In this document: positions 1,108-64,000 of the stretch, piece by piece | How the letters are laid out: the number at the start of each line of letters is the position of its first letter | How positions within the stretch are numbered: position 1 is the first letter of the stretch | Assembly: GCA_964036665.1 (NCBI GenBank) | Contig: OZ038531.1 | Coordinates: 4,464,001 to 4,528,000 of the forward strand | DNA length: 64,000 nucleotides | Direction of reading: 5' to 3' | From: Gordius sp. MW1 | Taxonomy: Eukaryota; Nematomorpha; Gordioida; Gordea; Gordiidae | Translations under genes and position numbers: made by a program | The notes under the pieces: model-generated | What the model was told of the DNA's origin: nothing | What the model saw: only the letters and a program-made list of their open reading frames with translations | The model's database searches: none

Positions 1108-1530
1108 TAATTGCTATGCAATTTATGGTCTCGCTTTTTGATGTCCATCCGTTGTCCGTCCGTGCGTTTTCCGTCCAACATGTATCTTAATTGCTGGTTC
1201 AATACCCGGAAAGGGCAAAAAATTTTTTTAAAATAAATTAATATATTGTTCTTGTTAATACCATTTATAATATGACTTTTTAACCGTGTCCTGGCTACTG
1301 ACCATTAAAAAAAATGACCATTGGCCAAAGTATAAATCGAAATTTTTTTTTCTATATTTTAAATATAGGCTATTTGGCCTTTTGCTGGCTACTGACCAAT
1401 GAAAAAAATGACCACTGGCCAAAGTGAGCATAAAATTGATTTTTTTTTCTAGATTATAAATAAACTTTTTTTGACTGTCTGCTAACCATTAGCAAAAATG
1501 ACCAATGGCCAAGGTCTAATTGGAAATTGG
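1108..1530 (+). repeat. Composite repeat (family A) with hairpin start and three CCATTGGCC units
   Basis: Begins with the palindromic hairpin AATTGCTATGCAATT followed by TATGG and a TGTCC/CCGTCC-rich stretch. A B-box-like CTGGTTCAATACCC comes next, then three successive units around the core TGACCA...TGACCA(T/C)TGGCCAA (near 1310, 1405 and 1500). The block order matches the larger arrays at 47.8-50.4 kb. Confidence 0.7.
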
Positions 1531-1714
1531 CTTTTCCAAGGTCATACCCTCTATTTGCGTTCCTTTCGTCATTTTGATTAATTTAAAAGTTGATAAATAA
1601 GAATGAATGAAAGAAAACCTATTCCTCAATAAATAAAATATTAATAAAAGTTTTATAGCAAGTTTTACAAAAATTAAACTTTTTAAATATTTGTATAAAT
1701 ACTTAACTAATCAT

Positions 1715-1955
1715 TTTGCATTTTATACCCCCCTCACTATAGGCATTCTCGCCCCTTCCCACTTTTCTCGCCCATAAATTGCATAGCAAATATGCTACTT
1801 ATATACGGAGTATAGATGAGTTTCGTTCCCCTTCCCTCCTGTACGTCCCTCCCCCCTTCCTCCCCCCCCCCCCCTTCCCCCCCCCCCCCCCCTTCTCTTC
1901 CCCTCCTCCCCCTCCCCCTTCCCCTTCCCACGAATGTCGAAGGCCCGAATATATA
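1715..1955 (+). repeat. Family C repeat: TATAGGCATTCTCGCCCC element with C/T tract
   Basis: Shares AACTAATCATTTTGCAT, TATAGGCATTCTCGCCCCTTCCCA, CATAAATTGCATAGCAAATATGC and TACGGAGTATAGATGAG with copies at 51.39, 52.26 and (minus strand) 22.44 kb. A nearly pure C/T tract (about 1829-1929) precedes a 3' GAA-loop hairpin, intact as GGGCC/GGCCC in other copies and degraded here (GTCGAAGGCCCG). The proline- and glycine-rich ORFs on both strands here are translations of that tract. Confidence 0.7.
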
Positions 1956-20291: not shown

Positions 20292-21422
20292 ATGGGAAAC
20301 TTTAGTGAAGATGATATAATTTCACAATTTACGGTATCCTATATTGAGCGCCTCTGTTTTCATAAAATAACCCTGGCTATGGTTGTTCTCAATTTTCTAG
20401 GGAATTTCGTCTACTTTTGGAGTCTTAACAAGGTTAAAACGTTAAAACCTCATTTTTACATCTACATCTATCAAATAATGATATGCGACATAGTAGCAGC
20501 TATAACAAGCATTATATGGCCGATATTGCCTTATTCCTATCCCGACATTGGATCTACATCTTATCTCTTTAACTTTTATCAGGCACACCTAGATTATGTC
20601 ATCAAAAATTCTTACGCCACTTGCGTCAACTGGACCACAGTTTTCATATCTATTGATCGCATCGTTGCAATGCATTACCCTATCATTTACCTCAAGCGAA
20701 TCAAACGATCTTCTATACTTGTAGCATGCGAAGCCATGGTGGTTTATTTTATACTCCTTTCAACCCCTTTAACTTTCTACTATAAAGTAAATAAGCTAGA
20801 TTTAGGTACAGAATTTGGAGGTAGACGACAGATCAGTTACAGTTTTCAACCTACTAATTTATTTTGGCTATTAATTTACGAAAAATTTGTGAATATTCAC
20901 TGTTTTCTCATTCCCATGGCGATCATCGTTGTATTGAATGCCTTACTAACATACTCCATATATTTAAAAAAAACGAGTTTAAAACGATCAAATACTAATC
21001 TGGCGACGGTAAGGATTTCTAACGTTGACACAAATATGAAGTACACTAGATGGAATAATAAGATATTGCCTAGATTAGCATCTCAGACTATAAAAAGGAA
21101 GCGCCAATTTAATTTCTGGAATAACGCAAATACAAATCAAAGACATCGAGTGCAAAGGTGCCAGGCTAAATTGTTAATTAACATTAATTTTATAGTAATA
21201 TTTTGTACATTACCATACGTTGTGGGCATATATGTTACGGGTAACTCTTGGTCTAATGAATCACGAAACATAATGAAAATAATACAAACTTTAGCCGTAA
21301 CAATAGTCCTATCTCAACCTACGTTACTAGTATATAATAATATATTTATGGATAAAAATATAGTCGGTGTATTAAAACAAATATTAACCACGTGTAAACA
21401 CAAACTATGGGTCAAAAGATAA
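20292..21422 (+). CDS. Divergent rhodopsin-family G-protein-coupled receptor
   Basis: Single-exon, 376-residue membrane receptor with seven hydrophobic segments: TM1 about 25-45 (G37-N38), TM2 57-78 (D66), TM3 103-125, TM4 141-161, TM5 197-222 (P208), TM6 293-315 and TM7 328-350. N3 is a possible glycosylation site. The DRY box is IDRIVAMHYP (121-130) and the third intracellular loop (about 223-292) is long and basic, typical of G-protein coupling. It departs from the family in several ways: no cysteine in the second extracellular loop to pair with C111, no Trp in TM4, CTLP instead of CWxP in TM6 (305-308), and no regular NPxxY (QPTLLVY, 342-348). It is therefore a fast-evolving peptide- or chemoreceptor-like protein whose ligand cannot be named. 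The start is supported by the in-frame stop two codons upstream. Confidence 0.88.
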   Translation: MGNFSEDDIISQFTVSYIERLCFHKITLAMVVLNFLGNFVYFWSLNKVKTLKPHFYIYIYQIMICDIVAAITSIIWPILPYSYPDIGSTSYLFNFYQAHLDYVIKNSYATCVNWTTVFISIDRIVAMHYPIIYLKRIKRSSILVACEAMVVYFILLSTPLTFYYKVNKLDLGTEFGGRRQISYSFQPTNLFWLLIYEKFVNIHCFLIPMAIIVVLNALLTYSIYLKKTSLKRSNTNLATVRISNVDTNMKYTRWNNKILPRLASQTIKRKRQFNFWNNANTNQRHRVQRCQAKLLININFIVIFCTLPYVVGIYVTGNSWSNESRNIMKIIQTLAVTIVLSQPTLLVYNNIFMDKNIVGVLKQILTTCKHKLWVKR

Positions 21423-21463: not shown

Positions 21464-22436
21464 TAATATGTTTGTGTTATAAATAAAAAGTGTGCAAATT
21501 TATTATATGATACAGTTTTCACATATCTAATAAGCAATCAGCCGAGGGTCCGAGATGGAGCTCGTTTTTTCACCTTGGGATTAGCGCCTAGTTATAGGAT
21601 ATTGTTCTTACTAAATCAATCCAAACTTCGTATAAACGTAGCACATTTGCTATGCAATTTATGGGTGAGAGGGTGGAAGGGTAGCGAAACGGTCAAACTT
21701 TAAGCAGGACAGGAGGTTAAAGAAATATGTACATTTTTAATCTAAAGGTTAGTCGCCCACAAATAAAAAAATTCGTAAAAAAGTCACAAAAAATAGGAAT
21801 CAAGTGAGGCCCAGAGAAATTTATAAACGTAAATAAGTAGCAAAAATAAATAGCAGTTAGCGAGGATTTTGGCCTAGGGCCGGGGTCAGACTAAGTAGAA
21901 GTAGGCACGTCATTAATTTGCAGGGAATTCCTTCTCAAATAAAAGGAAATGTTTAGAAAAATTTAGTTTACAAATAGGTTAAGAATTTCAAAAAAAAAAT
22001 ATTGAAATTTATTTTTTGTTTCATATTGTGGAAGGTGGGGTCCTGGAAGACCCCGGGCATCTAAAACACGCTGTATCTTACAAACTATTTGATAAAAACA
22101 AGCCAAATTTTGCAGAGGTATTCTTGGATAAATTTTATTCTAACTTATTTTGTACAACATTTAGTAACCGCTAAGGGTCCTCATGACTCCACCTAACCAA
22201 CGGAGTGTTAAAAACTTTATATTAAAAGTTGTTAAGAGGCGTGGGCTAAGAGAGGGATAATTGATAGTTAAGGTGTTATGCGTGAGCTTCAAAATACATG
22301 ATAAAATAAATAAATTATTTTCTTTTAAAATTAACTCATTGAATCGAAGTATCGCCCTTGGCTTTTATGATAAAAATGGTATTACATTAATATTATGACA
22401 GCCTCATCTTATCACTAAAAATAAAAAAATAAACTC
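21464..22436. other. Intergenic DNA with two degenerate repeat fragments
   Basis: A degenerate family C fragment in reverse orientation lies at about 21619-21700 (CGTATAAACGTAGCACATTTGCTATGCAATTTATGGG). A family B fragment in reverse orientation lies at about 21830-21930 (GGCCTAGGGCCGGGGTCAGACTAAGTAG). The rest shows nothing recognisable. Confidence 0.55.
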
Positions 22437-22640
22437 GGGCCTTCGGCCCTCGTGGGAAGGGGGAGAAGGGAAGGGGAAGGGGAGGAGGGGAAGGAAAGGG
22501 GGGACGACTCATCTATACTCCGTATAAATGTATCATATTTGCTATGCAATTTATGGGCGAGAACGGTGGGAAGGGGCGAGATTGCCTATAGGGAGGTATT
22601 AAATGCAAAATGATTAGTTAATTATTTATACAAATATTCC
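22437..22640 (-). repeat. Family C repeat, reverse orientation
   Basis: On the minus strand it reads TATAGGCAATCTCGCCCC, CATAAATTGCATAGCAAATATG and TACGGAGTATAGATGAGTCG, then a C/T tract and the hairpin GAGGGCCGAAGGCCCGAG. It has the same block order as the copy at 51.39 kb. Confidence 0.75.
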
Positions 22641-23165
22641 ATTCAATTTAAAAAAAAATTTGCCCTCTCCGGGATTCAAACCCACATTAATAGAGGCATA
22701 GGCTTTTGTAGGGGGGGGGCACAGGGACCCATATCAGTAGAGGCATAGGCTCTGCTAGGGGAGGGCATAGGGTAATTGTCAATGTTACCAAAAAAACGAA
22801 AAAAATAAATAACAATATGTAGAGCTGCATATAAATTCTAGTGCCTTAGGCTGCAAAATTTAATGGGGACGACTTTAAAGTTTATTTATGAATTTTTATA
22901 ACAAATTTGTTATACCTTTGTTACAATATAGCTAATATTTAATTTCAGACAATTTATCTCCCTTAAAAAACTTAGGAAGAACGTCTAGCTAGGTTGTGAG
23001 GCGATGACTCCATTGCTATTATGACTTTTTGGCCGTCCGCTGGCTCCTGACCGATGGAAAAAAATGACCATTGGCCAAAATGTGAATCGAAATTTTATTT
23101 TTTCGTTTTTGAATTGGTTATATTAGGTTAACATTGATAGTTACCCTATGCCCTTTCCTACAAGG
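22641..23165. repeat. Two family A modules in opposite orientations
   Basis: About 22660-22790 is a minus-strand module (reverse complement of GGGTTTGAATCCCGGAGAGGGC with GCCTATGCCTCTA repeats). About 23015-23165 is a plus-strand module (TTTTTGGCCGTCCGCTGGCTCC, TGACCATTGGCCAAAATG, GGTTAACATTGATAGTTACCC). Confidence 0.65.
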
Positions 23166-24890
23166 GCTTACGCCTTTTTAGAAATTATTCTAATATATGA
23201 GGCCTACACCCTCGCAAAAAATTAAGTATTCATAAAGGTTTTATAGTGTTTTTTACAAAAATTAAGATTGTTAACCATTTTACTTAAATCTAAGGTCGAA
23301 TAAGGCGATATTTGCAAACTATCGTCTGCATTATTACCCCTGAATATACTTTGGCATCAAAGCTTAGATTTTTTAGTAAAAATTGATTTTATATTATTAA
23401 TTGGAATTCGTGACAATTATTGTTTTAAACCTTTTTAAAAACGCTGAAATCAATCACAATTCACCCGTCATTTATACCACTAATCGGTATTAGGGAGTTG
23501 AACTTTCTTATATAAACTTATAGATTGTATAACGAGAAAAATTGATACTAATTACATTACTGTTTCTATATGGCATTGTCTGATCCCTTAACTAATTGAT
23601 TAATTTTGAAAATTTACGATACGCCAAAATATTTGTTCAACGTTTCCCTCCAGGATTTTCATTAACAACTTGACGGTTGTTCCAAAGTTTAGTGTGGAAT
23701 GAACTATCAAAATTAATTTTCGCTTAAAAGCTACACCTGTAAATTCAATACGAAAAACAATTATTATGTTTATTGGAAATTTCAGACATTTCGAAATCTG
23801 CAGCTAAACATTTTTCTTGTTGCTCTACATGTTGCCCATTATATATCTCAACTTTTCTTAATTATTGCCATTTTAAGTAACAATAAATAATCGATTAGCC
23901 ACCTCGAACTATAAACCAAAGATCAGACCGTTTATTGATTATATAAGAATTTTAAAAGCGGGATATAGTAAAAAGTTGGCGTAGTTTCAAGTAGGATTAA
24001 GTTAAAATGGGTTAGTTTTCGACTCTAGTTTAAATTACAAGCGTTATTATTATTATTTTTTTCCACAGCGGCTGATCTTAAAGCATAAAAATTTATCCCC
24101 TCCACTCCCGCCCCCTAATACAATAATGACGTATTGATTTTACAGGGAGGGAAGGGAGAGAGTTATTAATAGCTATCTAATTCTATTGATTCAAACGCGA
24201 TAAATAAAATATGCAAAATATCGTGCAACCCCCCCCCCACCCATCCCTCTAGGCAAGGATATATTACTCCGGCGTGGAAAACTATTGATTTTATAGGGAG
24301 GGAGGGAGAGGAGATGTCAATTTATTGATTTTGCTCAGTATGAGGGCATTATAGATTTGATGACTTAGCTCGGAAATTCTCCAATATACCCTTGAATTTA
24401 TATATAAACGAAAATAAGCTTCTTTTATTCCCCACCCCGTCCATGTAATCAGGATATGTCTATTAAGACAAAATAAGGAATATAAGAAGTTAGCATTATA
24501 CATGATAAATATAGCGTGCACCATTTTAAATATGACAAACCAATAAAAATGACAAAAGATGGTATTAACTTTGTATCTTTATAATAACAAAATTCAATAA
24601 TATAAAAACATGCACCAATTTGTAAGTAAATATTTTTTATTAACGTATATAATCCAAATTCAATTTTAAAGTGCAAGTCAAGTAATAATCATAGTATAAT
24701 TTAATAAACTTCATATAGAAAAGTGTTTTTAAATTTTTGGAATTTATAAAAACGTTAATATTTAATTCGAAGGCATTTCATCAATTTTTTTTAAGGTTCG
24801 GATTGATAATTAACAAGTAATGGGTGGAGCTAAGGCTAAAAATTTTTTGCATATTTTGCCGGGCTTCCCATTTAGGTAATATATTGCTAT
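23166..24890. other. Intergenic DNA, no gene seen
   Basis: AT-rich. Two GGGAGGGAGGGAGAG-type purine tracts (about 24145-24160 and 24297-24315), each following TATTGATTTTA(C/T)A, suggest a decayed local duplication. No protein-like ORF. Confidence 0.4.
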
Positions 24891-24894
24891 GTTT

Positions 24895-25060
24895 ATCATG
24901 TAATAAATAATAATAGAAAATCAATATATTATAGATAATTTAGCAAATATAAATTATTATGAAAAAAGGGGGGCCGCAAAAAAATTATAAAATATTTGGG
25001 GGCGGGGGGTGGCCGCGTGTATAAAAAGGTTAAGAATAGGTGTTTTTTGATCACCAAATA
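24895..25060 (-). repeat. Repeat module shared with 51.58-51.75 kb, reverse orientation
   Basis: The minus strand reads TTTTTATACACGCGGCC, a C run, AAATATTTTATAATTTTTTTGCGGCCCCCC and TTCATAATAATTTATATTTG. Nearly the same sequence is on the plus strand at 51622-51704. It adjoins the family A array in this copy. Confidence 0.65.
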
Positions 25061-26695
25061 TTCAAGAATTTGATTCAGTATTTTATAATGATTTTGGGAG
25101 GAGCATTTTGAAAGTTTAGCATTTACTTAAAAACAATTTGGCCAATGGTGATTTTTTTTATTGGTCAGTATCAAGAGACGGTCTATAAATACATACGAGT
25201 CAAAAAATGACGAAAAAAAATTTCGAATCTCAATTTGGCCAATGGTCCTTTTTTCCATTGGTCAGCACCAAGATACGGTCTATAAATACATACGAGTCAA
25301 AAAAAACGAAAAAAAATTTCGATTCACATTTTGGCCAATGGTCATTTTTTCCATTGGTCAGCAGCCAGCGGACGACCAAAAAGCCATATTATCCATGGTA
25401 TTAACAAGAACAATATATTAATTTAATTAAAAGATAAATAAAAATTTTGCCCTCTCCGGGATTCGAACCCACATTAGTAAAGGCATAGGGTTTGGTAGGG
25501 GCACAGGGACCCGTATCAGTATAGGCATATGCCCTTGTAGGAGAGGCCATGGGGTAATTATCAATGTTAACCAATTCAAAAACGAAAAAAATATTTCGAT
25601 TCACATTTTGGCCAATGGTCATTTTTTCATTGGTCAGTAGCCAGCGAACGACCAAAAAGCCATATTATCAATGGTATTGACAAGAACAATATATTAATTT
25701 AATTTAAAAAATAAATTGAAATTTTGCCCTCTCCGGGATTCGAACCCGCATCAGTAGAGGCATTTGTAGGGGCACAGGGACCCGTATCAGTAAAGGCATA
25801 GGCTTTGGTAAGGGGCACAGGGACCCATATCAGTAGAGGCTAGGCCCTTGTAGGAGAGGCCATGGGGTAATTATCAATGTTAATTTCGATTTATACTTTG
25901 GCCAATGGTCATTTTTTTATTGGTCAGTAGCCAGCGGACGACCAAAAAGCCATATTATCAATGGTATTAACAAGAACAATATATTAATTTAATTTTAAAA
26001 ATAAATAAAAATTTTGCCCTCTCCGGGATTCGAACCCACATTATTAAAGGCATAGGGTTTGGTAGGGGCACAGGGACGCGTATCAGTATAGGCATAGGCC
26101 CTTGTAGGAGAGGCCATGGGGTAATTATCAATGTTAACCAATTCAAAAACGAAAAAAAAATTTCGATTCACATTTTGGTTTTTTCATTGGTCAGTAGCCA
26201 GCGGACGACCAAAAAGCCATATTATCAATGGTATTAACAAGAACAATATATTAATTTAATTTAAAAAATAAATAAAAATTTTGCCCTCTCCGGGATTCGA
26301 ACCCACATTAGTAAAGGCAAAGGGGCACAGGGACCCATATCAGTAGAGGCATAGGCCCTTGTAGGAGAGGCCAGGGGGTAATTATCAAGGTTAACCTATT
26401 CAAAGACGAAAAAATACCATAAATTGCATATAGCAATTAAAAATTTCAATTTATTTGGCCAATGGTCATTTTTTTCATTGGTCTGTAGCCAGCGGACGGT
26501 CAAAAATTCATTTTATCAATGGTATTAACAAGAACAAAATATTAATTTAATTTAAAAAAATTGAAAAAAAATTCGTCCCCTCCCTGGCTTGAACCCGACA
26601 CCTCCAGGTCACAAAGCTGGCGCCAATACTTGGTGGACGACGGACAACGGACGACGGACAACCAAAAACGAGCCCATAAATTGCATAGCAATTAA
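25061..26695 (-). repeat. Family A tandem array, about 1.6 kb, reverse orientation
   Basis: Read on the minus strand, it starts with TTAATTGCTATGCAATTTAT, GGGCTCGTTTTTGGTTGTCC, CCGTCGTCCACCAAGTATT and a tRNA-like part (GTGACCTGGAGGTGTCGGGTTCAAGCC). Then come about seven units centred on GACCAATGAAAAAATGACCATTGGCC, several separated by GGTTCGAATCCCGGAGAGGGC. It ends in GACTCGTATGTATTTATAGACCGT and AATGCTCCTCCCAAAATCATT. Units vary from about 90 to 280 bp. Both ends and the block order match 47838-49400 on the plus strand. Confidence 0.85.
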
Positions 26696-27837: not shown

Positions 27838-28081
27838 AACAATACTTACGACGGTCCCAAGTTCGTGTGCAAAAAGTGGAGGGTTGGCGTCAGGTCGGAA
27901 ACCGTCTATAAAAACCAACTCCAAAATTATGATAGTTTCAAACAAGATTTTACAAGAAAAGGCTAGGGCGTCCTCCACAAACGACGCGCACTGCATACCC
28001 TGACCGTGCAATGTGAAAAATACACTAGGGTCACTGCCCAACTCACAACAAAGGCGGTTAAGGATATTAGTTGTTGAAAGA

Positions 28082-28801
28082 ATGCGAATAACGTGTTGGA
28101 ATGTGGGAACGTTGACGGGGAAGAGCATCGAGGTCGTACAAATGCTAAAAAGAAGAAAGGTACACATCGCTTGCCTACAAGAGACGAGGTGGAACGGAAC
28201 GAAAGCTCGGGAATTAGGAGAAGGGTACAAGCTTTTCTACAGTGAGTCACCAAATCGTAGAAACGGGGTCGGTATCGTTCTAAGCGAATCTTTCAAGGAC
28301 AAGGTGGTTGAAGTCAAGCGTTGTTCAGACAGGCTAATGTGGGTGAAGATTGCAGATCAAGGGGGCTTCCTAACCGTTATGTCCGCGTATGCTCCGCAGA
28401 TTGGGTGTCCGGAATCAGAGAAAGACATATTCTTCGATTTATTGGAAAAGGAAATACAAGGAATAGGACAGGAAGAAAGGTTAATTATTCGGGCGGACTT
28501 CAACGCTCACGTAGGGAAAGATCGTCTCGGGTATGAACGCAATCATGGAAGATATGGGCATGGTCTGAAGAACAAAGAAGAGGAAAAACTTCTCCAAGTA
28601 TCCCAAGCATATGACATGGCGATCGTTAACACGTATTTTCAAAAACGCGAAGATCATATTGTGACCTATAGAAGTGGGACTGAATTCAGTCAATTTGACT
28701 ATTTGCTTATACGGCGAAAGGACTTATGGAGTATCAAGGATTGCAAAGTATTACCGGGAGAAGAAATCGCCAGGCAACATCCCCCTTGTTATGGATTTTG
28801 A
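28082..28801 (+). CDS. LINE endonuclease domain (EEP family)
   Basis: A 239-residue reading frame beginning MRITCWNVGTLTG. It holds the exonuclease-endonuclease-phosphatase landmarks: N in CWNVGTL, E in LQETRW, VMSAYAPQIG, the D and N of ADFNAHVG, VNTYFQKRE, D in FDYLLIR, and the terminal RQH. This enzyme nicks target DNA for target-primed reverse transcription. The frame closes at a stop soon after RQH, where relatives continue into the RT polyprotein, so the downstream part is cut off by a frameshift near 28790. It is part of the LINE, not a host gene. In-frame sequence extends upstream to 28013, but homology starts at the chosen Met. Confidence 0.85.
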   Translation: MRITCWNVGTLTGKSIEVVQMLKRRKVHIACLQETRWNGTKARELGEGYKLFYSESPNRRNGVGIVLSESFKDKVVEVKRCSDRLMWVKIADQGGFLTVMSAYAPQIGCPESEKDIFFDLLEKEIQGIGQEERLIIRADFNAHVGKDRLGYERNHGRYGHGLKNKEEEKLLQVSQAYDMAIVNTYFQKREDHIVTYRSGTEFSQFDYLLIRRKDLWSIKDCKVLPGEEIARQHPPCYGF

Positions 28802-31757: not shown

Positions 31758-32040
31758 TTGTTCCAATGTATCTTCGATACGGGCGCTACGGTATCGATAA
31801 TACCGGCGCGAAGATGGGTGAAGGAGATCCCATGCAACAAGGAGCCCGTCCTGACGGTGTACGCGTACGGCCACGAGGAAATAAAGATCGTAGCCCAGGT
31901 GCAAGCCGATGTCCGAATGGGTAACACGAGAAAACAGCTGTCGTTATTGTTAGCAGACGTAGCTGGGCCCCCGTTGTGCGGATTGATAAGATCCAAGAAT
32001 TCGAACCCGAAATCTGTCGACGAATTCGTTGAAACTCGAG
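31758..32040 (+). pseudogene. Aspartic protease of the Gypsy-type element
   Basis: MFQCIFDTGATVSIIPARRW carries the DTGA active-site box of a retropepsin. The domain continues to about QLSLLLADVAGPPLCGL and then shifts frame into the RT. Confidence 0.8.
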
Positions 32041-32047
32041 AGCTGCG

Positions 32048-33130
32048 GTGGAACGGTTCGCGGTCAATTACGTGGAAAGACCCAAGAATATGAAGTCCAC
32101 GATCCAGCACGTGGCGAAGCAATGGGATGGCCAGCTAAACGAATTCCTAAAAGCAGTCAAGGGAATAAAGGTGGAAGTACCGTTAAAAGAGGGCATAGAT
32201 CCCGTATTTATCCTCGCACGAAGGGTGCCGATGGCGTGGAAGAAAGAAGTAGAAGAAGAGCTTAATAAATGGGTCAGAGACGGGGTGATAGAACCAATCG
32301 ATTTCTCAAGATGGGCCAGTCCAGCGGTACCCGTAAAAAAAAGCGATGGGAGCTTACGATTATGCATAGATTACTGGTACCCCTTACCCAAAATCGACGA
32401 TTTGTTAAATAAACTCGATAACGCGTGTTGTTTTACTAAGTTGGACCTAACTAAAGCGTACCTACAGCTTGAATTAGATACAGAGACGAGCCAACGATTG
32501 ACTATCTCCAAGCACAAGGGCTTGTTTAAAGTTAACCGGATGCCTTTTGGCTTAAATTGTGCTGCGGCTATTTTCAATGGATCAAATATTAGAAGGCATG
32601 GAGGGAGTCGCGGTATACATTGACGATATACTAATTGGGGAAACGGAAAAAATCCACCGAGCGGTTGCTCAAAGTACTAGAAACGTTACAATAGTGGGTG
32701 TTTGTGCCAAACATTTCTAAGAGCATCTTGTGGGCTAAGGAAGTAACATTTTTGGGATACGTAATAAGTAACAAGGGGATTCATATCAACGACAATAGAG
32801 CCGAACTAGTCAAGCAGTGGAAAAATTTAACAAACAAAAATGAAATAAAATCGTTTCTTGGGTTAACAGCATATTTTTCAAAGTTCATTAAGGACTACGC
32901 CAAAATCGTGCACCCGATTCAGAAACTCATGAAAAAAACGTGACGTACCACTGGGGTGGAGAACAACAAGGCGCATTTGAAGCCATCAAGTCCGCGCTTA
33001 CGAAAGCCCCCGTACTGACATACTTTAATGGAGATTGGGAGAAGGATCCGAAAACGCGGCAGATTTCTTGTGCGAGGCAGAAGACTCGAAAAAACCATTT
33101 ATATCAATGGACGTAGTGAGACAACACACC
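32048..33130 (+). pseudogene. Reverse transcriptase and RNase H remnant of the Gypsy-type element
   Basis: RT motifs occur in order: PVKKSDGSLRLCIDYWYPLP, CFTKLDLTKAYLQLELD, FKVNRMPFGLNCAAAIF, then after a shift VAVYIDDILIGETEK (catalytic YIDD, about 32610), and after another shift KEVTFLGYVISNKGIHIN and KSFLGLTAYFSKFIKDYAKI (to 32943). After a stop, YHWGGEQQGAFEAIKSALTK marks the start of the connection/RNase H region, but most of RNase H is missing. Not functional. Confidence 0.85.
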
Positions 33131-40222: not shown

Positions 40223-43200
40223 TTAACCCAAGCATACGACGCATGAAATTTCTCCCCCGCTAGGATATTTGTCACAGTTAAGGCTACCACAATGTGACTC
40301 TACTAGAATCAAGGCAGCCCCTTGTCTTTTCTCAGTGCCACCGTTGGGATATATGTCTAAAGCTTGATCTACGCAAACATATTCATTTCTGGCATATTTT
40401 TCTTCGGATGACATGAGAAAACCTTTATAAGCTAGCTCTAAGCCAGCGGGACAGGTTACAAAACCCGGTAACATGAGATTATGCGATTTCTGATCTGCCA
40501 CACACACGCTACAAGCTCTGTAAAAAATATCGTACAAATGCCAATGTTAAACCACGTTATTTAAAAAGTTATGCGGAGGGGAAAGGCATATAATTCTAAC
40601 AAGTAACAATTTATAGTATTCAAACTCACGCATTTTCGTTCAATCTAGATCCCGACGGAACTGGAAAAGCCATGACTTTTTTGCCAACTCTATATTCGAC
40701 ACCGAAAATGAGAGCCTGACTTTGAAAACCTTCTTTGGAACCTTCGTGCTGAGGCATATCCGGTAAACATAGATAATTGCCACCACTCCCCGTATAATGA
40801 TAATGTCCGCTACCCATGTGTCCTAAAACCAAAGTTCATTATCCCAATTTTACCACAAGACTATAAATTTATGAATAATTAATTATACCGAAATAGATTT
40901 GTCTAGCATTGCCTGGACATGTTAGCGATCCCCATCTTATAAAATTTGTGGCCACCGTGACAGCTGTAGAATAAACGGCACTGGATTAATGCTGGTTATA
41001 GATATATAGCAAAAAATCACCAAACCCCGTTTAGCATGAACGCATAGCAAGTGATACTTACAACAAACCTGTTTCTTTATTACCTGACATACAAGCGGAT
41101 CACGCTTAACTCTAATTAGGCCATATTGTGCATACTATAAATTAAAAAAGTAAAAGGCTTCCTTCTTTTAAAAACATTAATGAAATATTCATAATTAGTA
41201 ATCAAAAATAATTTAATAAATATGTGAAAACTCGGAGAATAACCAATAGAAACACTTTAAGCTGACTACAATTGAAACCTGCTCTTAGAAGCAACTATTA
41301 AAATATTAAACGGCAGTTATGTTGAAGAATAGCACATTGAACCATACCTGGCAATGTAGGGGTAGGAGGGCTGGTGTAAAATTGGTCACACCCTGGACAT
41401 ATACCGGGTGCACCGGGGGGACCTTGTGCCCCTGGCTGACCATCGCGCCCGGGTGTTCCGGGAAGTCCTTGAGGTCCGGGAAAGCCAGCAGGTCCTCTTT
41501 CCCCTGGTGAACCATTTTGACCGGGTGCGCCATCTTTCCCAGTAGCTCCGTCGTATCCATCCAAACCAGGTTTTCCCGGCTCACCGAATGGTCCGGGGGA
41601 ACCTTGAGGCCCTGGACCACCAGGTCTACCATCAGAACCGGACGCTCCGTCAAACCCGGGTCGGCCATCTTGACCTGGCGTTCCAGGTTCACCCTTAGGT
41701 CCAGGTTGTGGTTTAGTTTGATCGTAAATAACGCGTCCCGGTGCTCCTGGTGCCCCCGGAAATCCTATTTCACCCGGTGGTCCAGGCAATCCTCGAGCAC
41801 CGACTCCACCAGGTTTCCCATCGGAGCCAGGTGTTCCTGGTAAGCCGGATGGTCCGGCCATTCCTTTAGGACCGGCAGGGCCTTGCAAGCCAGGAGCTCC
41901 CGAGGTTCCGGGCTTACCCGGGGGACCTTGTACTCCCTAAATTGATAATTTTATATATAATTAAATGAAGCCTTTTCATACTAGATAAAGAAAACGTAGT
42001 TAGGCAATATTTTGCGCTTGCTGCATCTTATAACAGACTCCATTTCTATTCACATTTTTAGCGAACAATCTAAATATTTAAAGCTGGGATCTAAGCAACA
42101 AAATTATATTAAATTATATATTACCGGTGACCCATCTCTTCCAGGACTACCAGGTAAACCAGCTGCACCGGGTGAGCCAGGCGATCCAGAAGAGCCTTTA
42201 GGGCCTTGAGGACCAGGAAATCCAGGTCCACCAGGAAAGCCATCCTTGCCATCTTTGCCGGGCAAACCATTTCCACCGTCTTTCCCTGGCAGCCCCGGTG
42301 CTCCGCTTAATCCTTAAATCAAAGTTGTCAAATATTGTGTAAACAGATTGATTGCCTAAAATTTAATCAGCAAATTTTTAATATACAAGTCTTGAGATTA
42401 AAAGTTCCTTGTATTAAAAGTTTTTTGTACACTCTAATAATCATTTCAAGTATTCAATGGGTCATTAACCCAAAAATTTAAAATGGGCATAAATAGGGCT
42501 GGAAAAATTTGGCTTAACCGAATGATAACTCATAGTTTGTAATTAACCTTTTGGTCCAGGGGCACCATCCTTCCCAGGATTTCCAGGTCCGCCAGGAGAG
42601 CCTGAAGATCCTTGAGGTCCAGGAGCTCCATCGCTTCCTTTAGATCCAGGTTGGCCCGGTGGTCCTTGGGGACCTTGTGGACCATTCATACCTTTGGGAC
42701 CCTATAAACAAATAACATGCTTAATATGAAAATTCTAGAAGCTTCATAAATAAGACGAAAAAAGGATTATATTTTGTGAAACAGAGAGATGGCATTTTAA
42801 AGAGAACTTTAAATTACGGACATTTTATGATGTAAAAAATATATTGATCAAGCGCGCGTCTAAAGCTCTATACGGGTCGAAATTTCGTGAAACAGAGAGA
42901 TGGCATTTTAAAGAGAACTTTAAATTACGGACATTTTATGATGTAAAAAACATATTGATCAATTATCAATTAGCGCCGTCTAAAGCTCTATACGGGTCGA
43001 AGGCATGGGCTTAGCGAGGGGGAGGCAGGGATGGAATGCTGCCCTAAAAATACAGAAATCTTTGAAAACTTAATATGATCATGGCTTAAAATTCAAAAGA
43101 TTCTCCAAAACATTATTGTCCCCTATGGTCGAAGGGGAATAATATTCGAAAATGCACCCATAAATAAACTAAGTCTTGGCAAAATTTCTTCAGAAAGAAT

Positions 43201-45680: not shown

Positions 45681-46884
45681 AATTGTAGTCTAGGAGGCGA
45701 TATTTTTACAATGTTTATTTTACTCTACCGAAAAATCGAAATATTTAGCCGAAAAAAGTGAATGGAATTTTTTGGGGAAAAAACTTTTTTACTTTACGAA
45801 AGCGTTATGCGACAAAAATATCAAGCATAAATAGTGTTGTTATGCGGAGCATCTCCACACTCATGCACTACTATGGGTGAGGGGGTTAAAGGCGAGGTGC
45901 AAAGGTCCCCCCCCTGTCCTACCCCCCCCCCCCCTTCTTAATTCTGCCAAAACGACAATGCATTTTGGACATTCAAATGCGACGCCTGGGGTGTTTTACA
46001 TTTAAATTTTTGAACCGTTTGTCACATAGGATTGTTCATTGCGCAAAATTTTAACAGTATCTACATATACGTACTGCGTACTCATACATACATTATAATT
46101 TGTTAACACTCACCCCGTCTAGGCCCAAAAATTTGTTGCTCAAAATTTTGTCGGGTTGTTACCCTAAGTAACCTTAACAGCCCCGTCTCAAACTGAAGAA
46201 AGATGCTAATTTTGAATAAATTAACGGAGGTGATTTAGTGCGGCGCAAAAATAAAAATAACTCTAAAACTTTGCGAATATCTACGACAAAATTCCCTAAC
46301 TTTTTTTTCACAATTACTTAAAATTACTTAAAGTTCTGCCAGGGTTGTGCTGCCATAAAATTAATATTGAAAACGATATTAGAAAAAAAAAGTTAAAAAT
46401 TGATGGATTAGGCTGCAGTGGTAAAACATCACGTAAACCACAAGACAAAGTACAATCATTTGTCCTCGTCCCCTAAAATAAGTGTCTGAGGCACAAATAC
46501 TGCAAAATTTGGGACTTTTTAGGAAGGGGGGTTGGTTATTAGTTGCCTTAAGGTCGCAGTAATTTTCGATAAACACATTTTTGGTACATAATAAAATTGG
46601 AGATTGCCAGACTGATGGCTCAAACTCTACCACTACGTGCACGTAGATTAAGTAAAATTGTCGGTGTTTATAAGGGGCCCATGATGGGATAATGACAAAA
46701 TTCCGAGCTAATAACTATGAGAAAATTGAGACATTTTAATATGCCTCGTCTCTCGCTGGAAACACCCTAGATGTCTTAGGTTATAGTAATAATAATGTCG
46801 ATTTCGAAGCAAAAATAAGTTGGAACCTTACCTTAAAAAATAATATTTTATTTGCAGGAATAGAAATTGTCAGTTATATAAAAT
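45681..46884. other. Upstream region of the collagen gene
   Basis: Contains long C runs (about 45908-45934). No TATA box, repeat or coding region that I can defend. Confidence 0.4.
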
Positions 46885-46892
46885 ATTATAAC

Positions 46893-47146
46893 CATTGGCG
46901 TAGGGAGGGGGTGGTTTTCGGGTTAGAACCCCTCCTATGATTTTCAATTTATATAATTTTTATATTGTACATTTAATAAAAGTAAATATTTGTTGGAATT
47001 TTATTTTTAGTATTTTATTATTTTTACGCTATTTTCATTTTAAACGTTTAGGGAAAAAGACATTTTTAACCAAAAAAATAATTAAAAACAAAATTTCACG
47101 TTGAAAATTTCCCCCCCCCCTTCAGGAAAACCTAGTTACGCCTATG
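46893..47146. mobile_element. MITE with CATTGGCGTAGGG termini and perfect 8-bp target duplication
   Basis: Left CATTGGCGTAGGGAGG, right CCTAGTTACGCCTATG, 254 bp. Flanked by ATTATAAC on both sides. Confidence 0.88.
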
Positions 47147-47179
47147 ATTATAACTATGGTGTGATTGTATTGTTGAAGT

Positions 47180-47545
47180 CTGTAGGTATAAAGTTCTATT
47201 ATTTAGGACGAAGAACGCAGGGGTTGATTAAAATGAAATATATAAAAGCAAGAACCTTGTCAAGTTGCCAAAAGAAATTCATAAGTAAAAAGGTAATAAT
47301 TAGTCGAGCACAAAAACAATAATGGGATTCGGGCTCGGGCGAGGTCGAAAAATTTAAAGCCAACCGGCGGTCGTTAGCTGATCTATTTGCGAAAGCAAAA
47401 TAAAAGTCTTTTACAGAAGCTTAAGTCCACAGCCATTTAAAACCCGTATAAATTTTTACAGCAATTATTGAAAAATTACAAGTTGGACAGGACTTACATG
47501 AGAACCAAAAACGAGCATATACATTGCATAGCAATTAATTAAATG
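47180..47545 (-). repeat. Family B repeat, reverse orientation
   Basis: On the minus strand it starts TTAATTGCTATGCAATGTAT, ATGCTCGTTTTTGG and continues to TTTTATTTTGCTTTCGCAAAT, CGACCTCGCCCGAGCCC and TTGGCAACTTGACAAGG. Same blocks as at 10.4 and 56.05 kb. Confidence 0.65.
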
Positions 47546-47837
47546 GTTGTGTATAAAATATGCGGGTGGATATAAAAAAAGCAATAAAATATTATAATAA
47601 TTATACTAATTATAATTTGTTTTTAACACCCTCTAACATTCTTGATAATAAATTTATGAAGAATAATAAAACATATTTTTCTAAAATTCTATTCGACTTT
47701 TTGCATTGAAATCTAAGCCAAGTATTTATCTAATTTTTTGGGGGGGATGCCTGTGGCTTTAAACCTTATGAATTCATCAATCAGATTAATCATGGTTGAA
47801 AAGTGTGGGAAAAAGAAAATTTTCATTTATTTATTTA
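47546..47837. other. Short intergenic stretch, nothing recognised
   Basis: AT-rich DNA between family B and family A repeats. No coding signal. Confidence 0.35.
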
Positions 47838-48501
47838 ATTTATTTATTAATTGCTATGCAATTTATGGGCTCGTTTTTGGTTGTCCGTCGTCCGTCGTCC
47901 ACCAAGTTATTTGCCCCAGACTTCTGACCTGGAGGTTCGAGTTCAAGCCCAGGAGAGGACGAATTTTTTCAATTGTTTTTTTTTAATTAAATTAATATAT
48001 TGTTCTTGTTAATACCATTGATAATATGACTTTTTGACCGTCCGCTGGCTCCTGACCATTGAAAAAATGACCATTGGCCAAAATGTGAATCGAATTTTTT
48101 TTTCGTTTTTGAATTGGAATATTAGGTTAACATTGATAATTACCTTATGCCCTCCCCTACAAGGGCCTATGCCTCTACTGATATGGGTTCCTGTGCCCCT
48201 ACAAAAGCCTATGCCTCTATTAATGTGGGTTCGAATCCCGGAGAGGGCAAAATTTTTTTTTTTTTTAATTAAATTAATATATTGTTCTTGATAATACCAT
48301 TGATAATATGACTTTTTGACCGTGCCCTGGCTACTGACCAATGGAATAAATGACCATTGGCCAAAATGTGAATCAAAATTTTTTTTTCGTTTTTTTTGAC
48401 TCTTATGTATTTATAGACCGTTTCTTGGTACTAACCAATGGGAATAAATGACCATTGGCCAAAATGTGATTCGAAAATTTTTTTCGTTTTTTTTGACTCG
48501 T

Positions 48502-48509
48502 ATGTATTT
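48502..48509 (+). repeat. Left 8-bp target duplication of the hAT MITE
   Basis: ATGTATTT, identical to 49276-49283. Confidence 0.92.
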
Positions 48510-49275
48510 TAGAGGTGTGCACGGATCAATCCGATCCGACATCCGATCCGATTTGTCCGAACTCGGATCGGATGAATATTTTATTTTAGTCGAATCGGAT
48601 ATGATTTTCAAATTTAAAATAAACAATAATAAGTTCTAATTAATTAAATTAATAATTTTTAGTATACCTTTTCATAATTATCTTTGCATTCTTTTTTTAA
48701 TTTACCATTTTTGATGCCTAATACCACCTCTCACCTTACTTACCCTAATATATTTATCAGTATTTCCCTAGCGTTTTTCCCTAGCTAGACTTTCTTGTTT
48801 GGCGAGAAAGGAGCTAGTGTCAATGATAAATCAGCATCTCCCGTTTCCTTTTTAGCACACGCATCTCTTTCTATCTCAACTCAACTCCGAAAATCATCAA
48901 TCACAATCTCCCCTTTCCTTAAAGCACACGCGTAGCTCCTTTCCCCGAATTAAACCAGAAAATTTAGATTCTTTATTATTTTTATATGATAATATGGAAT
49001 TAGTCAAATAAAATTTTATATTTATTTCAGGTCTATTAAAATTGCTATACCTTATTTTTATGTATTTTGAATTTAATCATCAATAAAAAGTTCTGTTCGT
49101 AAAATTTTAATTTAAAAGTTTCGGATCGGATCGTATTTAGATTTTAAAAAACTCAGATCGAATCGGATCGGATTTAGATTTTAAAAAACTCGGATCGGAT
49201 CGGATGGATATAAAATTTTTCAAAACCCCCTCGGATCGGATCGGATCAAAAAAATTTGATCCGTGCACACCTCTA
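48510..49275. mobile_element. hAT-type MITE, 766 bp, perfect 20-bp inverted termini
   Basis: Both ends read TAGAGGTGTGCACGGATCAA inward, with an identical 8-bp duplication outside. Subterminal CGGATCGGAT repeats are clustered within about 110 bp of the left end and 155 bp of the right end. The right cluster includes a duplicated GGATTTAGATTTTAAAAAACTC. The middle is AT-rich and non-coding. TAGAGGTG ends and 8-bp duplications are hAT hallmarks. Confidence 0.95.
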
Positions 49276-49403
49276 ATGTATTTATAGACCGTCTCTTGGT
49301 ACTGATCAATAAAAAAAATGACCATTGGCCAAATTGTTTTTAAGTAAAGGCTAAAATTTCAAAATGCTACTCCCAAAATCATTATAAAATACTGAACCAA
49401 ATT

Positions 49404-50395
49404 CTTGAATATTAATTGCTATGCAATTTATGGGCTCGTTTTTTGGTGTCCGTCCGTTGTCTGTTGTCCGTTGTCCGTTGTCCGTTACCTCCCTATCTAT
49501 TTGCATTGGGTATATTAGGTTATCGCTTTTTTAAATTAATGCATGAGAAAGAGGTGCCCCACCCCTCATCTCTATTAAGAGGTGACCCACCCCTCATCTC
49601 TATCTCCCTCGCTTTCGGGCGGGGTCGGGTTTTAATTGCTACGTTAAATTAATGCATAAGTATATCTATATTTAAATTTTGGTAATTGCTATGCAATTTA
49701 ACTAGTTTTGGGGTTAGAATCCCGGAGTTTTTTTTGACTCTTATGATTGTTCTTGTTACTATCATTGATAATAAGACTTTTTGGCCGTCCGCTGGCTGCT
49801 GACCAATGAAAAAATGACCATTGGCCAAAATGTGAATCCGAGTTTATTTTTTCGTTTTTTTTTGACTATTATGATTGTTCCTGTTACTACCATTGCTATT
49901 ATAACTTTTTGGCCGTCCGTTGGCTGCTGACCAATGGAAAAAAATCACCATTGGCCAAAATGTGATTCGAAATTTTTTTTTTCGTTTTTTTTGACTATTA
50001 TGAATTTATATCCACTTTTACCGTGTCCTGGCTGCTGACCAATGGAAAAAAATGACCATTGGCCAAAATGTGATTCTAAAATTTTTTTTTAGTTTTTTTT
50101 GACTATTATGAATTTATATCCACTTTTACCGTGTCCTGGCTGCTGACCAACGGAAAAAAATGACCATTGGCCAAAATGTGATTCGAAATTTTTTTTTTCG
50201 TTTTTTTGACTATTATAAGTTTATATCCACTTTTACTGTGTCCTGGCTGCTGACCAATGGAAAAAAATGACCATTGGCCAAAATGTGATTCGAAAATTTT
50301 TTTTTCCGTTTTTTTTGACTTATGAATTTATATCCACTTTTACCGTGTCCTGGCTGCTTACCAATGAAAAAAAATGACCATTGGCCAAATTTTAT
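49404..50395 (+). repeat. Family A tandem array with two hairpin boxes, about 1 kb
   Basis: Starts with the hairpin and GGGCTCGTTTTTTGGTGTCCG, then CCGTTGTCCGTTG repeats, a GAGGTGCCCCACCCCTCATC duplication, and a second hairpin followed by TAACTAG (49681-49705). From about 49740 there are six units of about 105-125 bp, each with GACCAATGG, a run of A, TGACCATTGGCCAAAATGTG and a T run. The first part is repeated at 63205-63935. Confidence 0.88.
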
Positions 50396-50954
50396 ATATA
50401 ACCTAAAAATTTATTATAGATGGTCTAACAGACAGCCAACTATGTAATATATATTTTTAACCTTATAAATGCTTATATATTTTTTTATTGGGTTAATATA
50501 TTTCATTTAATTAGATTGTGATTTCATAGAAAACCTAAAAAGTAATATTTAAAAAATAATATAGGTATTAGATTCTAATTTACGATAAAATATATCGATA
50601 GAAACTAACACAAAATTCGAAACCTCCTTCAAAGGTATAATCATAGCCCGTTATTTCTAATTAAATTGAATCTACTATTAAACTCAAACACGAATTGTAC
50701 TTTATTAGATGGCGCGCGTAAGTTTATATAATTAGTATAATTTTTCTACGTGTCATAGATATTACACCGCACGTGTGGCAGGGAAATGTCCGATATTTTT
50801 AAAATGAAAAGGTATTTTAGGAATCTGAAAAGGTTATTTTACCCCCGGCCGCCCTTAGCACCTACGAATAAAGTTTCGAGCGAATCGGGCTGGTAGTTTA
50901 AGAATTTAGCCCTTTTTTAAAACTAAAAAAAAACTTTTTTTTTTAATTTTTTTT
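50396..50954. other. Intergenic DNA, nothing recognised
   Basis: AT-rich, with a GC-richer patch at about 50700-50890 (ATGGCGCGCGTAAG, CCGCACGTGTGGCAGGG). No protein-like ORF and no match elsewhere in the window. Confidence 0.35.
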
Positions 50955-51385
50955 TTACATTAAATTAATATTTTGTTTTTGTTAATACCATTGATAATAT
51001 GACTTTTTGACCGTCCGCTGGCTACTGACCGACGAAATATATTGATTTTCTAAACATAAAACACAACTTTATTATTTCATTATCTATATAAATAACATAA
51101 TAACTTCTACTATTTTAAAGCTAGCATGGTATAGTGGTTATAGCGCCGGCTTGTGAACTTGAGGTGTGGGGTTCAAGTCAGGGAAAGGACAAATTTTTTT
51201 TTTAATTTTTTTAAATTAAATTAATATTTGTTCATGTTAATACCAATGATAATATGAATTTTTGACCGTCCGCTGGCTACTGACCAATAAAAAAATGACC
51301 ATTGGCCAAATAAATCGAAATTTTTTTTCGTTTTTGAATTGGTTAACATTGATAATTACCCTATGTCCTCCCCTACAAGGGCCTA
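50955..51385 (+). repeat. Family A modules with a tRNA-like head
   Basis: A partial unit at about 50955-51035, then a piece (ACATAAAACACAACTTTATT, 51055) repeated at 51757. The tRNA-like head 51124-51195 has A-box-like TGGTATAGTGGTTATAG and B-box-like GGTTCAAGTC, followed by AGGACAAATTTT and a family A unit. Confidence 0.75.
51124..51195 (+). repeat. tRNA-derived SINE-like head
   Basis: TGGTATAGTGGTTATAGCG fits an RNA polymerase III A box and GGGGTTCAAGTCAGG a B box, 72 bp overall, with a CTTGTGA loop-like centre. Acceptor and anticodon stems do not pair properly, so this is a tRNA-derived element head and not a tRNA gene. A related copy, more degenerate in its A box, is at about 51876-51940. 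Confidence 0.6.
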
Positions 51386-51575
51386 TAACTAATTATTTTG
51401 CATCTAATACCCCCTATAGGCATTCTCGCCCCTTCCCACCTTTCTCGCCCATAAATTGCATAGCAAATATGCTACGTTTATACGGAGTATAGAAGAGTTC
51501 CCCCTTCCCCTCTTCCCTTCCCCTACTCCCCTTCCCTTCTCCCCCTTCCCACGAGGGCCGAAGGCCCGAGTTTTT
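51386..51575 (+). repeat. Family C repeat with C/T tract and 3' hairpin
   Basis: AACTAATTATTTTGCATCTA, TATAGGCATTCTCGCCCC, CATAAATTGCATAGCAAATATG, TACGGAGTATAGAAGAG, an 80-bp C/T tract, then GAGGGCCGAAGGCCCGAG and a T run. Confidence 0.8.
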
Positions 51576-51756
51576 TTTTGATGATCAAAACACGCCTATT
51601 GCTGAAGTGTTTTACTTAACCTTTTTATACACGCGGCCCCCCCCCCCAAATATTTTAAAATTTTTTTGCGGCCCCCCATTTTTTCATAATAATTTATATT
51701 TGTTAAATTATCTATAATATATTTTTCTATTATTGTTTCATTTTATTATATAATAA
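51576..51756 (+). repeat. Repeat module shared with 24.9-25.06 kb
   Basis: GATCAAAACACGCCTATTGC, TTTTTATACACGCGGCC with a C run, AATTTTTTTGCGGCCCCCC and TTCATAATAATTTATATTTG, matching the reverse complement of 24895-25060. Confidence 0.65.
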
Positions 51757-52254
51757 ACATAAAACACAACTTTATTATTTCATTATCTATATAAATAACA
51801 TAAAAACTTCTACTATTCAAAAAATTATTTTCATTATAAATAAAAGTTACACAGATTTTTTTAATACCATAAAGGTGTGAGTGGTTATAGCGAACGGCTT
51901 GTAAACAGGAGGCAAAGAGTTCGAATCCCGGAGAGGACAAATTTTTTTTTTTAATTAAATTTATATTTTGTTCTTGTTAATACCATTGATAAAATGACTT
52001 TTTGACCGTCCGTTGGCTCCTGACCAATGAAAAAGAATGACCATTGGCCAAATAAATCGAATTTTTTTTCCGTTTCTGAATTGGTATATTATATTAGGCT
52101 AACATTAATAATTATCCTATGCCCTCCCCTACAAGGGCCTATGCCTCTACTGATATGGGTCCCTGTGCCCCTACAAGAGCCTATGCCTCTACTGATGTGG
52201 GTTTGAATCCCGGAGAGGGCAAATTTTTTTTTAATTAAATGGAAAATGTGATAA
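51757..52254 (+). repeat. Family A modules with second tRNA-like head
   Basis: Repeats ACATAAAACACAACTTTATT from 51055, then a tRNA-like head (GTGAGTGGTTATAGCG, GAGTTCGAATCCCGGAGAGG). A unit at about 52020 and two GCCTATGCCTCTACTGATAT/GTGGG blocks follow, closing with GTTTGAATCCCGGAGAGGGC. Confidence 0.75.
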
Positions 52255-52442
52255 ATAATTAACTAATCATTTTGCATTTAATACCCCCCTATAGGCATTC
52301 TCGCCCCTTCCCATCTTTCTCGCCCATAAATTGCATAGCAAATATGCTACGTTTATACGGAGTATAGATGAGTTTCGTTCCCCCTTCCCTTCCCCCCTTC
52401 CCTTCCCCCCTCCCCCTTCCCACGAGGGCCGAAGTCCCGAGT
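52255..52442 (+). repeat. Family C repeat directly before the (TTTA)n tract
   Basis: Same blocks as the copy at 51386. The 3' hairpin is GAGGGCCGAAGTCCCGAG (one change). The microsatellite begins right after it, where other copies have a T run. Confidence 0.8.
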
Positions 52443-53138
<696 letters not shown>

Positions 53139-53390
53139 CTGTTTGTTAATTCAAAAAAGTCATCATTTAGTGTATATTATTAAAAACAATATTGTTGAGA
53201 GATATAAAAGTTTCATTTAAATTAAATTGAAATCGATCGGTACAGTGTTTTAATCATATTAGCTAATTTTTGCGCGCCAATAAAATGTTAAATAAATTTA
53301 AAATAAATGAACCAATCCACTTATGCAGATTGAAGCAAACATTATGTAATTTAATTTCAAATTTTTCTCCATACATTTTTCATATTTTAT
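53139..53390. other. Short intergenic stretch, nothing recognised
   Basis: AT-rich. No coding signal. Confidence 0.35.
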
Positions 53391-63204: not shown

Positions 63205-64000
63205 TCAGTCATTTTTAATTGCTATGCAATTTATGGGCTCGTTTTTGGTTGTCCGTTGTCCGTCCGTTGTCCGTCCGTTGTCCGTCCGTTGTCCGTTGTC
63301 CTCCCTATCTATTTGCATTGGGTATATTAGGTTATCGCTTTTTAATTGCTATGCATGAGAAAGAGGTGCCCCACCCCTCATCTCTATCTCATGCATAAGA
63401 GGTGCCCCACCCCTCATCTCTCTCTCCCTCGGTGTGTTATATATAAGATTTGTTAAATTATCTATTATATAATAAACATAAATAAAGTTGTTTACTTTTA
63501 ATTGCTATGCAATTTAACTAGTTATATAATAAACATAAATAAAAGTTGTTTACTTTTAATTGCTATGCAATTTAACTAGTTTTTGTTATATAATAAACAT
63601 AGATAAAAGTTGTTTACTTTTAATGCTATGCAATTTAACTAGTTATATAATAAACATAAATAAAAGTTGTTTACTTTTAATTGCTATGCAATTTAACTAG
63701 TTTTGGGGTTAGAATCCCGGAGTTTTTTTGACTCTTATGATTGTTCTTGTTACTATCATTGATAATAAGAATTTTTGGCCGTCCGCTGGCTGCTGACCAA
63801 TGAAAAAAATGACCATTGGCCAAAATGTGAATCGAAATTATTTTTTTCGTTTTTTTTGATTATTATGATTGTTCCTGTTTCTACCATTGCTATTATGACT
63901 TTTTGGCCGTCCGCTGGCTGCTGACCAATGTTATATAATAAACATAAATAAAAGTTGTTTACTTCTAATTGCTATGCAATTTAACTAGTTTTTGGGTTAG
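63205..64000 (+). repeat. Family A array with repeated hairpin-CTAG units, runs off the window
   Basis: Hairpin plus GGGCTCGTTTTTGGTTGTCC, four CCGTCCGTTGT units, and a GAGGTGCCCCACCCCTCATC duplication. Then four units of about 60-70 bp (63455-63705): TTATATAATAAACATAAATA, AAAGTTGTTTACTTTTAATT and a hairpin ending TTTAACTAG. Two CCATTGGCC units follow and another hairpin unit lies at 63930-63990. Homologous to 49404-50100, which has one hairpin-CTAG unit only. Truncated by the window end. Confidence 0.85.

Follow-up and report, generated by a model that had tools for sequence, protein, structure and literature searches.

We analysed a stretch of 64,000 nucleotides of Gordius sp. MW1 (C5:4464001-4528000, hereafter the window; the genome comprises 211.8 Mb in 12 contigs) and conclude that its repeats are very probably copies of one abundant, non-autonomous rolling-circle transposon family of the Helentron type (Helitron2 clade), organized like the HINE and DINE-1 elements. 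The order and orientation of the parts of those copies, their borders, their nesting, and their insertion into T-runs at two empty sites were all observed directly; on this structure we would class the element as a HINE family that is new within a known type and whose mechanism is presumably that of the known family. An earlier note on this DNA, covering positions 47838-52442, had suggested a non-autonomous rolling-circle-type element of the DINE-1 kind, and in that respect finds support in the part order, in the two empty sites, and in the published description of HINEs (PMC4067079; this and the papers below are cited from excerpts). The borders of the copies, for their part, had to be corrected; in this genome of 212 Mb the family has 6421 exact left ends.

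Parts and borders of the element

Read from left to right, a copy consists of a T-run; a palindromic 5' subterminal inverted repeat (subTIR), AATTGC-TAT-GCAATT, with TTATGGGCTCG; a GTCC-type microsatellite; central tandem repeats, which may include 58-bp units ending in the palindrome plus TTTAACTAG; an inverted 3' subTIR; a C/T-rich stretch; the terminal hairpin GGGCC-GAA-GGCCC-GAG; and a further T-run. The variable internal tandem repeats and shared modules that the earlier note had described are real. The palindrome itself, with up to two mismatches, was found 20 times in the window against a mean of 0.82 and a maximum of 5 in 100 shuffles; and its exact form occurs 8387 + 8587 (16,974) times in the genome, the reversed control giving 0 in this as in the exact genome-wide counts of left ends, right subTIRs, hairpins and TTTAACTAG units below. 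A literature search for its letters in three forms returned no match.

The contexts of the palindrome were compared within the window and within 19 stretches of C1 into which fetched loci had been merged (136,207 bases in total); these stretches, having been chosen for holding the palindrome, are no random sample. Three contexts emerged: the left end, where TT is followed by AATTGCTATGCAATTTATGGGCTCG, often then by a GTCC-type microsatellite, with unrelated sequence leftward; the right subTIR, where an inverted copy, CTCGCCCATAAATTGCATAGCAAAT, is followed by C/T-rich sequence, CCACGAGGGCC-GAA-GGCCCGAG and Ts, beyond which the sequence is unrelated and the element ends; and the internal unit, AATTGCTATGCAATTTAACTAG, which lies within elements. 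The continuations read in the earlier note recur in these same places: the palindrome runs into TTTATGGGC(T)CG at left ends, into TTTATGGGC(G)AG where it lies close to a right end and is read on the opposite strand, and into TTTAACTAG within the bodies. The palindrome had been proposed, moreover, as a border mark shared by the different repeats, and as such it is real and far above chance; but the border that it marks is the left one, with an inverted copy inside the right one, so that the statement that the repeats had no inverted termini does not hold. Together with TTTATGGGC, the palindrome forms an inverted pair, one member of which occupies the left end while the other lies a short way inside the right one. 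A consensus drawn from 33 left ends and another drawn from 20 inverted right subTIRs have 20 identical bp in common; here, as in the border comparisons below, right subTIRs caught by the left-end pattern were removed by their letters. HINEs are recognized by inverted subTIRs of at least 11 bp near both ends, and here the 20-bp pair keeps its asymmetric order in the larger-scale comparison on C1 described below. Nor is the palindrome the 3' hairpin, as had been supposed, since that hairpin is the GGGCC-GAA-GGCCC-GAG of both complete copies in that interval (Table 1).

Exact counts in the genome amounted to 3221 + 3200 left ends, 2101 + 2169 right subTIRs, 1411 + 1468 3' hairpins followed by TTT, and 2944 + 3096 (6040) TTTAACTAG units. 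Among the exact matches listed for C1:0-3.16 Mb (100 left ends, 60 right subTIRs and 49 hairpins, where one right end may serve several left ends), a hairpin lay within 250 nt downstream on the same strand of 34 of the 60 right subTIRs, at spacings of 83-166 nt from start to start, compared with 0 upstream, 2 on the opposite strand, and 0.1 at random. A right subTIR followed within 4 kb of 40 of the 100 left ends (12 upstream, 5 opposite, 3.6 at random with a largest value of 12), and a hairpin followed 33 of them (5 upstream, 8 opposite, 3.0 at random with a largest value of 10).

Outside these ends the resemblance between copies ceases: 30-nt segments taken 10 nt beyond the border had a mean pairwise identity of 0.30 for the left end (34 segments) and 0.32 for the hairpin (16 segments), random segments of the window giving 0.28, whereas on both sides of the TTTAACTAG unit the identity was 0.54-0.67. 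TT stood directly before the left end in 35 of 35 cases, and two or more Ts came after the hairpin in 16 of 16.

The 16 two-ended copies that we read measured from 841 to 4593 bp, with 13 of them in the range of 1258-2157 bp; one element, at C1 836243-834060, was dropped from this survey because its middle was unfetched. The hairpin region ended 83-103 nt beyond the end of the right subTIR in 15 of the 16 and 158 nt beyond it in the other, and GGGCCGAAGGCCC was intact in 14 of the 16 right ends (ends matched with at most 3 mismatches). The 3' palindrome expected of a HINE is present as a 5-bp stem. Folded as single-stranded DNA, the 5' subTIR reached -3.5 kcal/mol (z -2.60; 6 of 200 shuffles as good) and the 136-nt right end a z of -3.26 (0 of 200), the end of a canonical Helitron giving a z of 0.10. 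As in other HINEs, coding capacity is absent, the longest stop-to-stop frames being of 79 codons in the inner and 133 in the interrupted outer copy of Table 1.

Nesting and insertion sites

The interval whose repeat bodies the earlier note had taken as different is a single copy broken by another, and the borders that had been assigned to the whole match those of the outer copy within 11 nt (Table 1). That outer copy is flanked on both sides by TTTA units; straight after its right end, 174 perfect TTTA units occupy 52443-53138.

When rejoined, the flanks of the inner copy align unbroken inside the third copy of the window, where the empty site reads GAATATTTGGTGATC; the filled site, at the inner copy itself, reads GAATATT-element-TTTTTTTTTGATGATC. 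Likewise, the copy at C1:346238-344476, which lies within an element module, has the filled site ATATTGTTTT-element-TTTTTGTTAATACC, the empty form ATATTGTTCTTGTTAATACC being present in several paralogues. At these two paralogous empty sites the number of Ts alone had changed, besides single substitutions (A/G, T/C). A positive control was provided by a miniature inverted-repeat transposable element (MITE) at 48510-49275 in the outer copy, with inverted ends of 20 identical bp (TAGAGGTGTGCACGGATCAA) and a duplication of 8 bp (ATGTATTT) of which three uninterrupted copies of the MITE's host module have only one instance; since that duplication was detectable there, one made by the HINE would have been seen as well. 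A target duplication of 8 bp we take to be typical of hAT elements, and this MITE is probably hAT-like. The absence of obvious target duplications noted beforehand stands, at these two sites, as regards anything beyond Ts, while insertion between A and T, also proposed, is contradicted by the T-runs at both borders and by the TT before every left end read. Insertion into TT or T-rich sites with no other change of the target is what characterizes HINEs.

Table 1. Features of the HINE family located in the window, in window coordinates
Feature	Position	Strand	Remarks
Outer HINE copy	47849..52441	+	Has left end, then right subTIR, then 3' hairpin; in (TTTA)n; interrupted by second copy and MITE
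Inner HINE copy, nested in outer	49414..51570	+	Both ends; rejoined flanks match 25194-24888 (-)
Palindromic 5' subTIR, outer copy	47849..47863	+	Palindrome match
Palindromic 5' subTIR, inner copy	49414..49428	+	Palindrome match
Inverted 3' subTIR, inner copy	51444..51468	+	
Inverted 3' subTIR, outer copy	52319..52343	+	
3' terminal hairpin region, inner copy	51549..51570	+	Folds as 5-bp stem
3' terminal hairpin region, outer copy	52420..52441	+	One stem pair broken
GTCCGTT microsatellite behind left end of inner copy	49452..49486	+	
Internal palindrome + TTTAACTAG unit	49684..49705	+	Taken as an end in the earlier note
Central tandem repeats, 108-128 bp units, inner copy	49727..50389	+	
Paralogous empty site for inner copy	24888..25194	-	
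Third complete copy	22434..26693	-	Contains the empty site of the inner copy
Fourth complete copy	1109..1949	+	Degenerate right end
Fifth copy, left part	63217..64000	+	58-bp palindrome + TTTAACTAG units; continues past window edge

Alternative readings and known relatives

A hairpin standing a few bases before CTAG, in 6040 exact occurrences and in a genome where CTAG-ended canonical Helitrons are present, would invite the view that the copies are canonical (Helitron1) non-autonomous elements, with the palindrome plus CTAG as their 3' end and inserted between A and T. We nevertheless find that view hardly credible. Of 46 AATTGCTATGCAATTTAACTAG-type units, 27 were succeeded by the GGTTAGAATCCCGGAG module, 17 by a further 58-bp unit and 1 by a degenerate unit, the remaining one running off the fetched region; furthermore, each of the 46 TTTAACTAG units was preceded on its own strand, at a distance of under 3 kb, by a left end. 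Because 44 of the 46 thus proceed into element modules and every one trails a left end, the TTTAACTAG/CTAG unit is internal and no end of an element, contrary to the role of 3' terminus first given to CTAG. The right border, for its part, consists of GGCCCGAG plus Ts, where a canonical Helitron would show a 3' hairpin followed by CTRR; T-runs, with TT and not A before the left end, replace the A/T insertion site; and the end of the resident canonical Helitron carries a different hairpin. Such a hairpin with CTAG inside an element can mislead structure-based searches for Helitrons. There might still be a function for the palindrome + TTTAACTAG units as Helitron1-like secondary nick or stop sites, at which copying would sometimes end inside the body and restart, so building the 58-bp arrays and the shuffled bodies; this we hold to be improbable, though if true it would unite both kinds of rolling-circle end in one hybrid element.

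The 20-bp identical inverted repeats, the non-coding bodies and the high copy number would equally suit a cut-and-paste MITE with terminal inverted repeats, which we nonetheless judge highly unlikely: the repeats are asymmetric, one being at the left border and the other 83-158 nt inside the right border with the hairpin outside, instead of at the extreme ends and accompanied by a duplication of fixed size; and the two empty sites showed no non-T duplication even though a true MITE in the same copy shows its 8 bp. Least credible of all is a tRNA-derived short interspersed nuclear element (SINE) or a dispersed satellite with palindrome-bearing units. Its appeal lies in the tandem units, in the B-box-like GGTTCGAATCC modules, and in tRNA-like stretches followed by T-runs; but the copies are sharply bordered and oriented on both sides, a scan of the window with ARAGORN gave no tRNA gene, and Rfam (46000-53200) yielded two matches only, both under threshold. 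The border evidence weighs against a SINE as the whole element, whereas one may have been captured inside it. The stretches in question, at 51120-51200, 51868-51950 and 48200-48260 within HINE bodies, have A-box-/B-box-like motifs before their T-runs and are possibly such a captured SINE; a literature search found no paper that combined any three of the terms HINE, Helentron, tRNA-derived and SINE.

HINEs as published combine palindromic subTIRs with a 3' palindrome, insert into T-rich targets, vary in the number of their terminal Ts, and possess tandem cores (PMC4067079; PMC7492417). HINE-Mo of Metaseiulus occidentalis resembles the Gordius element in its palindromic subTIRs, 3' palindrome, T-rich target without other change, varying end Ts, and microsatellite or tandem cores in some copies; it differs in that its 3' subTIR lies 38-60 bp from the end, against 83-103 nt here in 15 of 16 copies, and in that the Gordius element has 58-bp internal units repeating the end palindrome + TTTAACTAG, the mite element having been compared by description and not by the letters of its subTIRs (PMC4067079). 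Cg_HINE of the Pacific oyster is alike in its subTIRs, the microsatellite behind the left end, the central tandem repeats, the 3' palindrome, the T-rich insertion, and the insertion into other repeats, but its monomers are mostly of 140-180 bp, compared with 58 and about 100-128 bp here, the latter with B-box-like modules (PMC7492417). DINE-1/INE-1 of Drosophila shares the subTIRs, the 3' stem-loop, the TT target, the microsatellite and the high copy number, its subTIRs being, however, of 13 bp and non-palindromic (PMC4067079). FoHeli/Helitron2 of Fusarium oxysporum, again compared by description and not by letters, has similar hairpin-forming, asymmetric terminal inverted repeats, with the 3' copy set back and T at the insertion, but comprises mainly coding elements with other end sequences (PMC5148889). 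The Gordius element has the structural features published for HINEs, with a longer 3' spacing than in the mite, and lacks those of canonical Helitrons; less usual are its CTAG-bearing amplified internal copies of the end palindrome, its copy number, and its tRNA-like core modules.

Several observations nevertheless weigh against assigning the family to the HINEs. Rolling-circle copying is something that we infer, transposition itself being unobserved. Informative empty sites number two only, and their filled forms hold 8 and 4 extra Ts relative to the empty ones, so that a duplication of Ts alone may have occurred, the same T ambiguity and varying terminal Ts having been reported for HINEs (PMC4067079). 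Taken by itself, the 3' hairpin (-5.2 kcal/mol) does not stand out from shuffles in its folding energy (z -0.84; 31 of 200 equally good), the 3' subTIR spacing, including the single value of 158 nt, exceeds that of the mite, and left ends are sometimes repeated in one copy (C1 324424-326190). In addition, with Rep and PIF1 matches taken as the best 150 of 714 (Helitron_like_N) and the best 150 of 970 (PIF1) candidates, HINE ends were found within about 1.5 kb in 0 of 30 fetched Rep loci, and the exact HINE hairpin end within 12 kb in 0 of the 7 Rep/PIF1 matches listed for C1 below 5.5 Mb, a comparison of little power.

Candidate partner and other features of the window

By analogy with the known family, a Rep/helicase acting in trans would recognize the subTIRs and the hairpin (PMC4067079), rolling-circle replication would peel off one strand, and that strand would be inserted into T-rich sites; the tandem cores may change through slippage or unequal exchange. 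That one machinery moves all the bodies is plausible.

Canonical Helitrons are abundant in the genome, with at least 150 Helitron_like_N matches out of the 714 candidates. One of them (L052 + L091) has an open frame of 1441 amino acids, of which the first 1023 match Helitron_like_N and the start of PIF1, the whole frame also being listed with a PIF1 match; on the 3' side it ends in GCCAAAGCAACGCTTGGCCGGGCACAGCTAG before T, a 23-base end that occurs 343 + 370 (713) times in the genome. As a partner of the HINEs this Helitron was rejected because its hairpin and end differ. Past that end there is a palindrome remnant (ATTGCTATGCAATTTATAACATTT). Of the matches listed on C1, 1 of 18 for Rep and 0 of 22 for PIF1 had the exact canonical end within 8 kb on their downstream side, again with little power, and the upstream breakpoints of the 30 Rep loci entered tandem 5' repeats with no clear termini.

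The candidate supplier of the Rep/helicase, to be regarded as a lead only, is a Helentron-like family of DUF6570 genes with an RPA70-like open reading frame; DUF6570 gave 21 matches, with frames of up to 1767 amino acids. We take DUF6570 to be a companion of Helitron2-type proteins; in a literature search for DUF6570 and Helitron, the first-ranked matches did not contain both words together. In the copy on C8, two same-strand open-reading-frame pieces downstream of the DUF6570 gene resemble the 70-kDa subunit of RPA (1jmc: E 2.6e-14 and 5.9e-07), and an RPA has been described likewise in Helentrons, whose autonomous members carry Rep, helicase and endonuclease and often RPA. A variant left end, AATTG-ATGCAATTTATGGG + TTTTATTACA, has 11 occurrences, 10 of them exact and the other with a single mismatch; 9 of these, at four loci, precede a match to the N-terminal part of the DUF6570 protein by 645-1107 nt on that match's own strand, as measured by hand; the nine are tandem or duplicated, and hence non-independent. 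At L093 the variant is followed by sequence about 70% identical to HINE bodies over about 150 nt. At both L092 and L093 (C8 ~4091300-4094800 and C6 ~2709900-2715100) the DUF6570 gene is preceded by an array in which its 5' coding unit recurs in tandem every 290 bp or so, and the variant left end is likewise repeated there.

Against this partnership, no inverted variant was found near these genes among the 21 places; L094, past the C6 gene, carries a hAT transposase end; and the C8 and C6 genes had no Rep/PIF1 match among the best 150 candidates, which does not amount to absence. An old HINE carried inside a Helentron would explain the variant end equally well. The genome offers a testable pairing, in that it harbours thousands of HINEs alongside canonical Helitrons and a Helentron-like gene family, and the ends of all three can be matched.

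Elsewhere in the window, 78 perfect GAA units occupy 14529-14762, and remains of retroelements, with an endonuclease and a reverse transcriptase domain, lie at 28004-28801 and 32033-32623. Host-like genes encode a cytochrome b561-domain protein (4894-6585, -), a rhodopsin-family receptor (20289-21422, +) and a collagen (41298-41936, -), which together suggest an animal genome.

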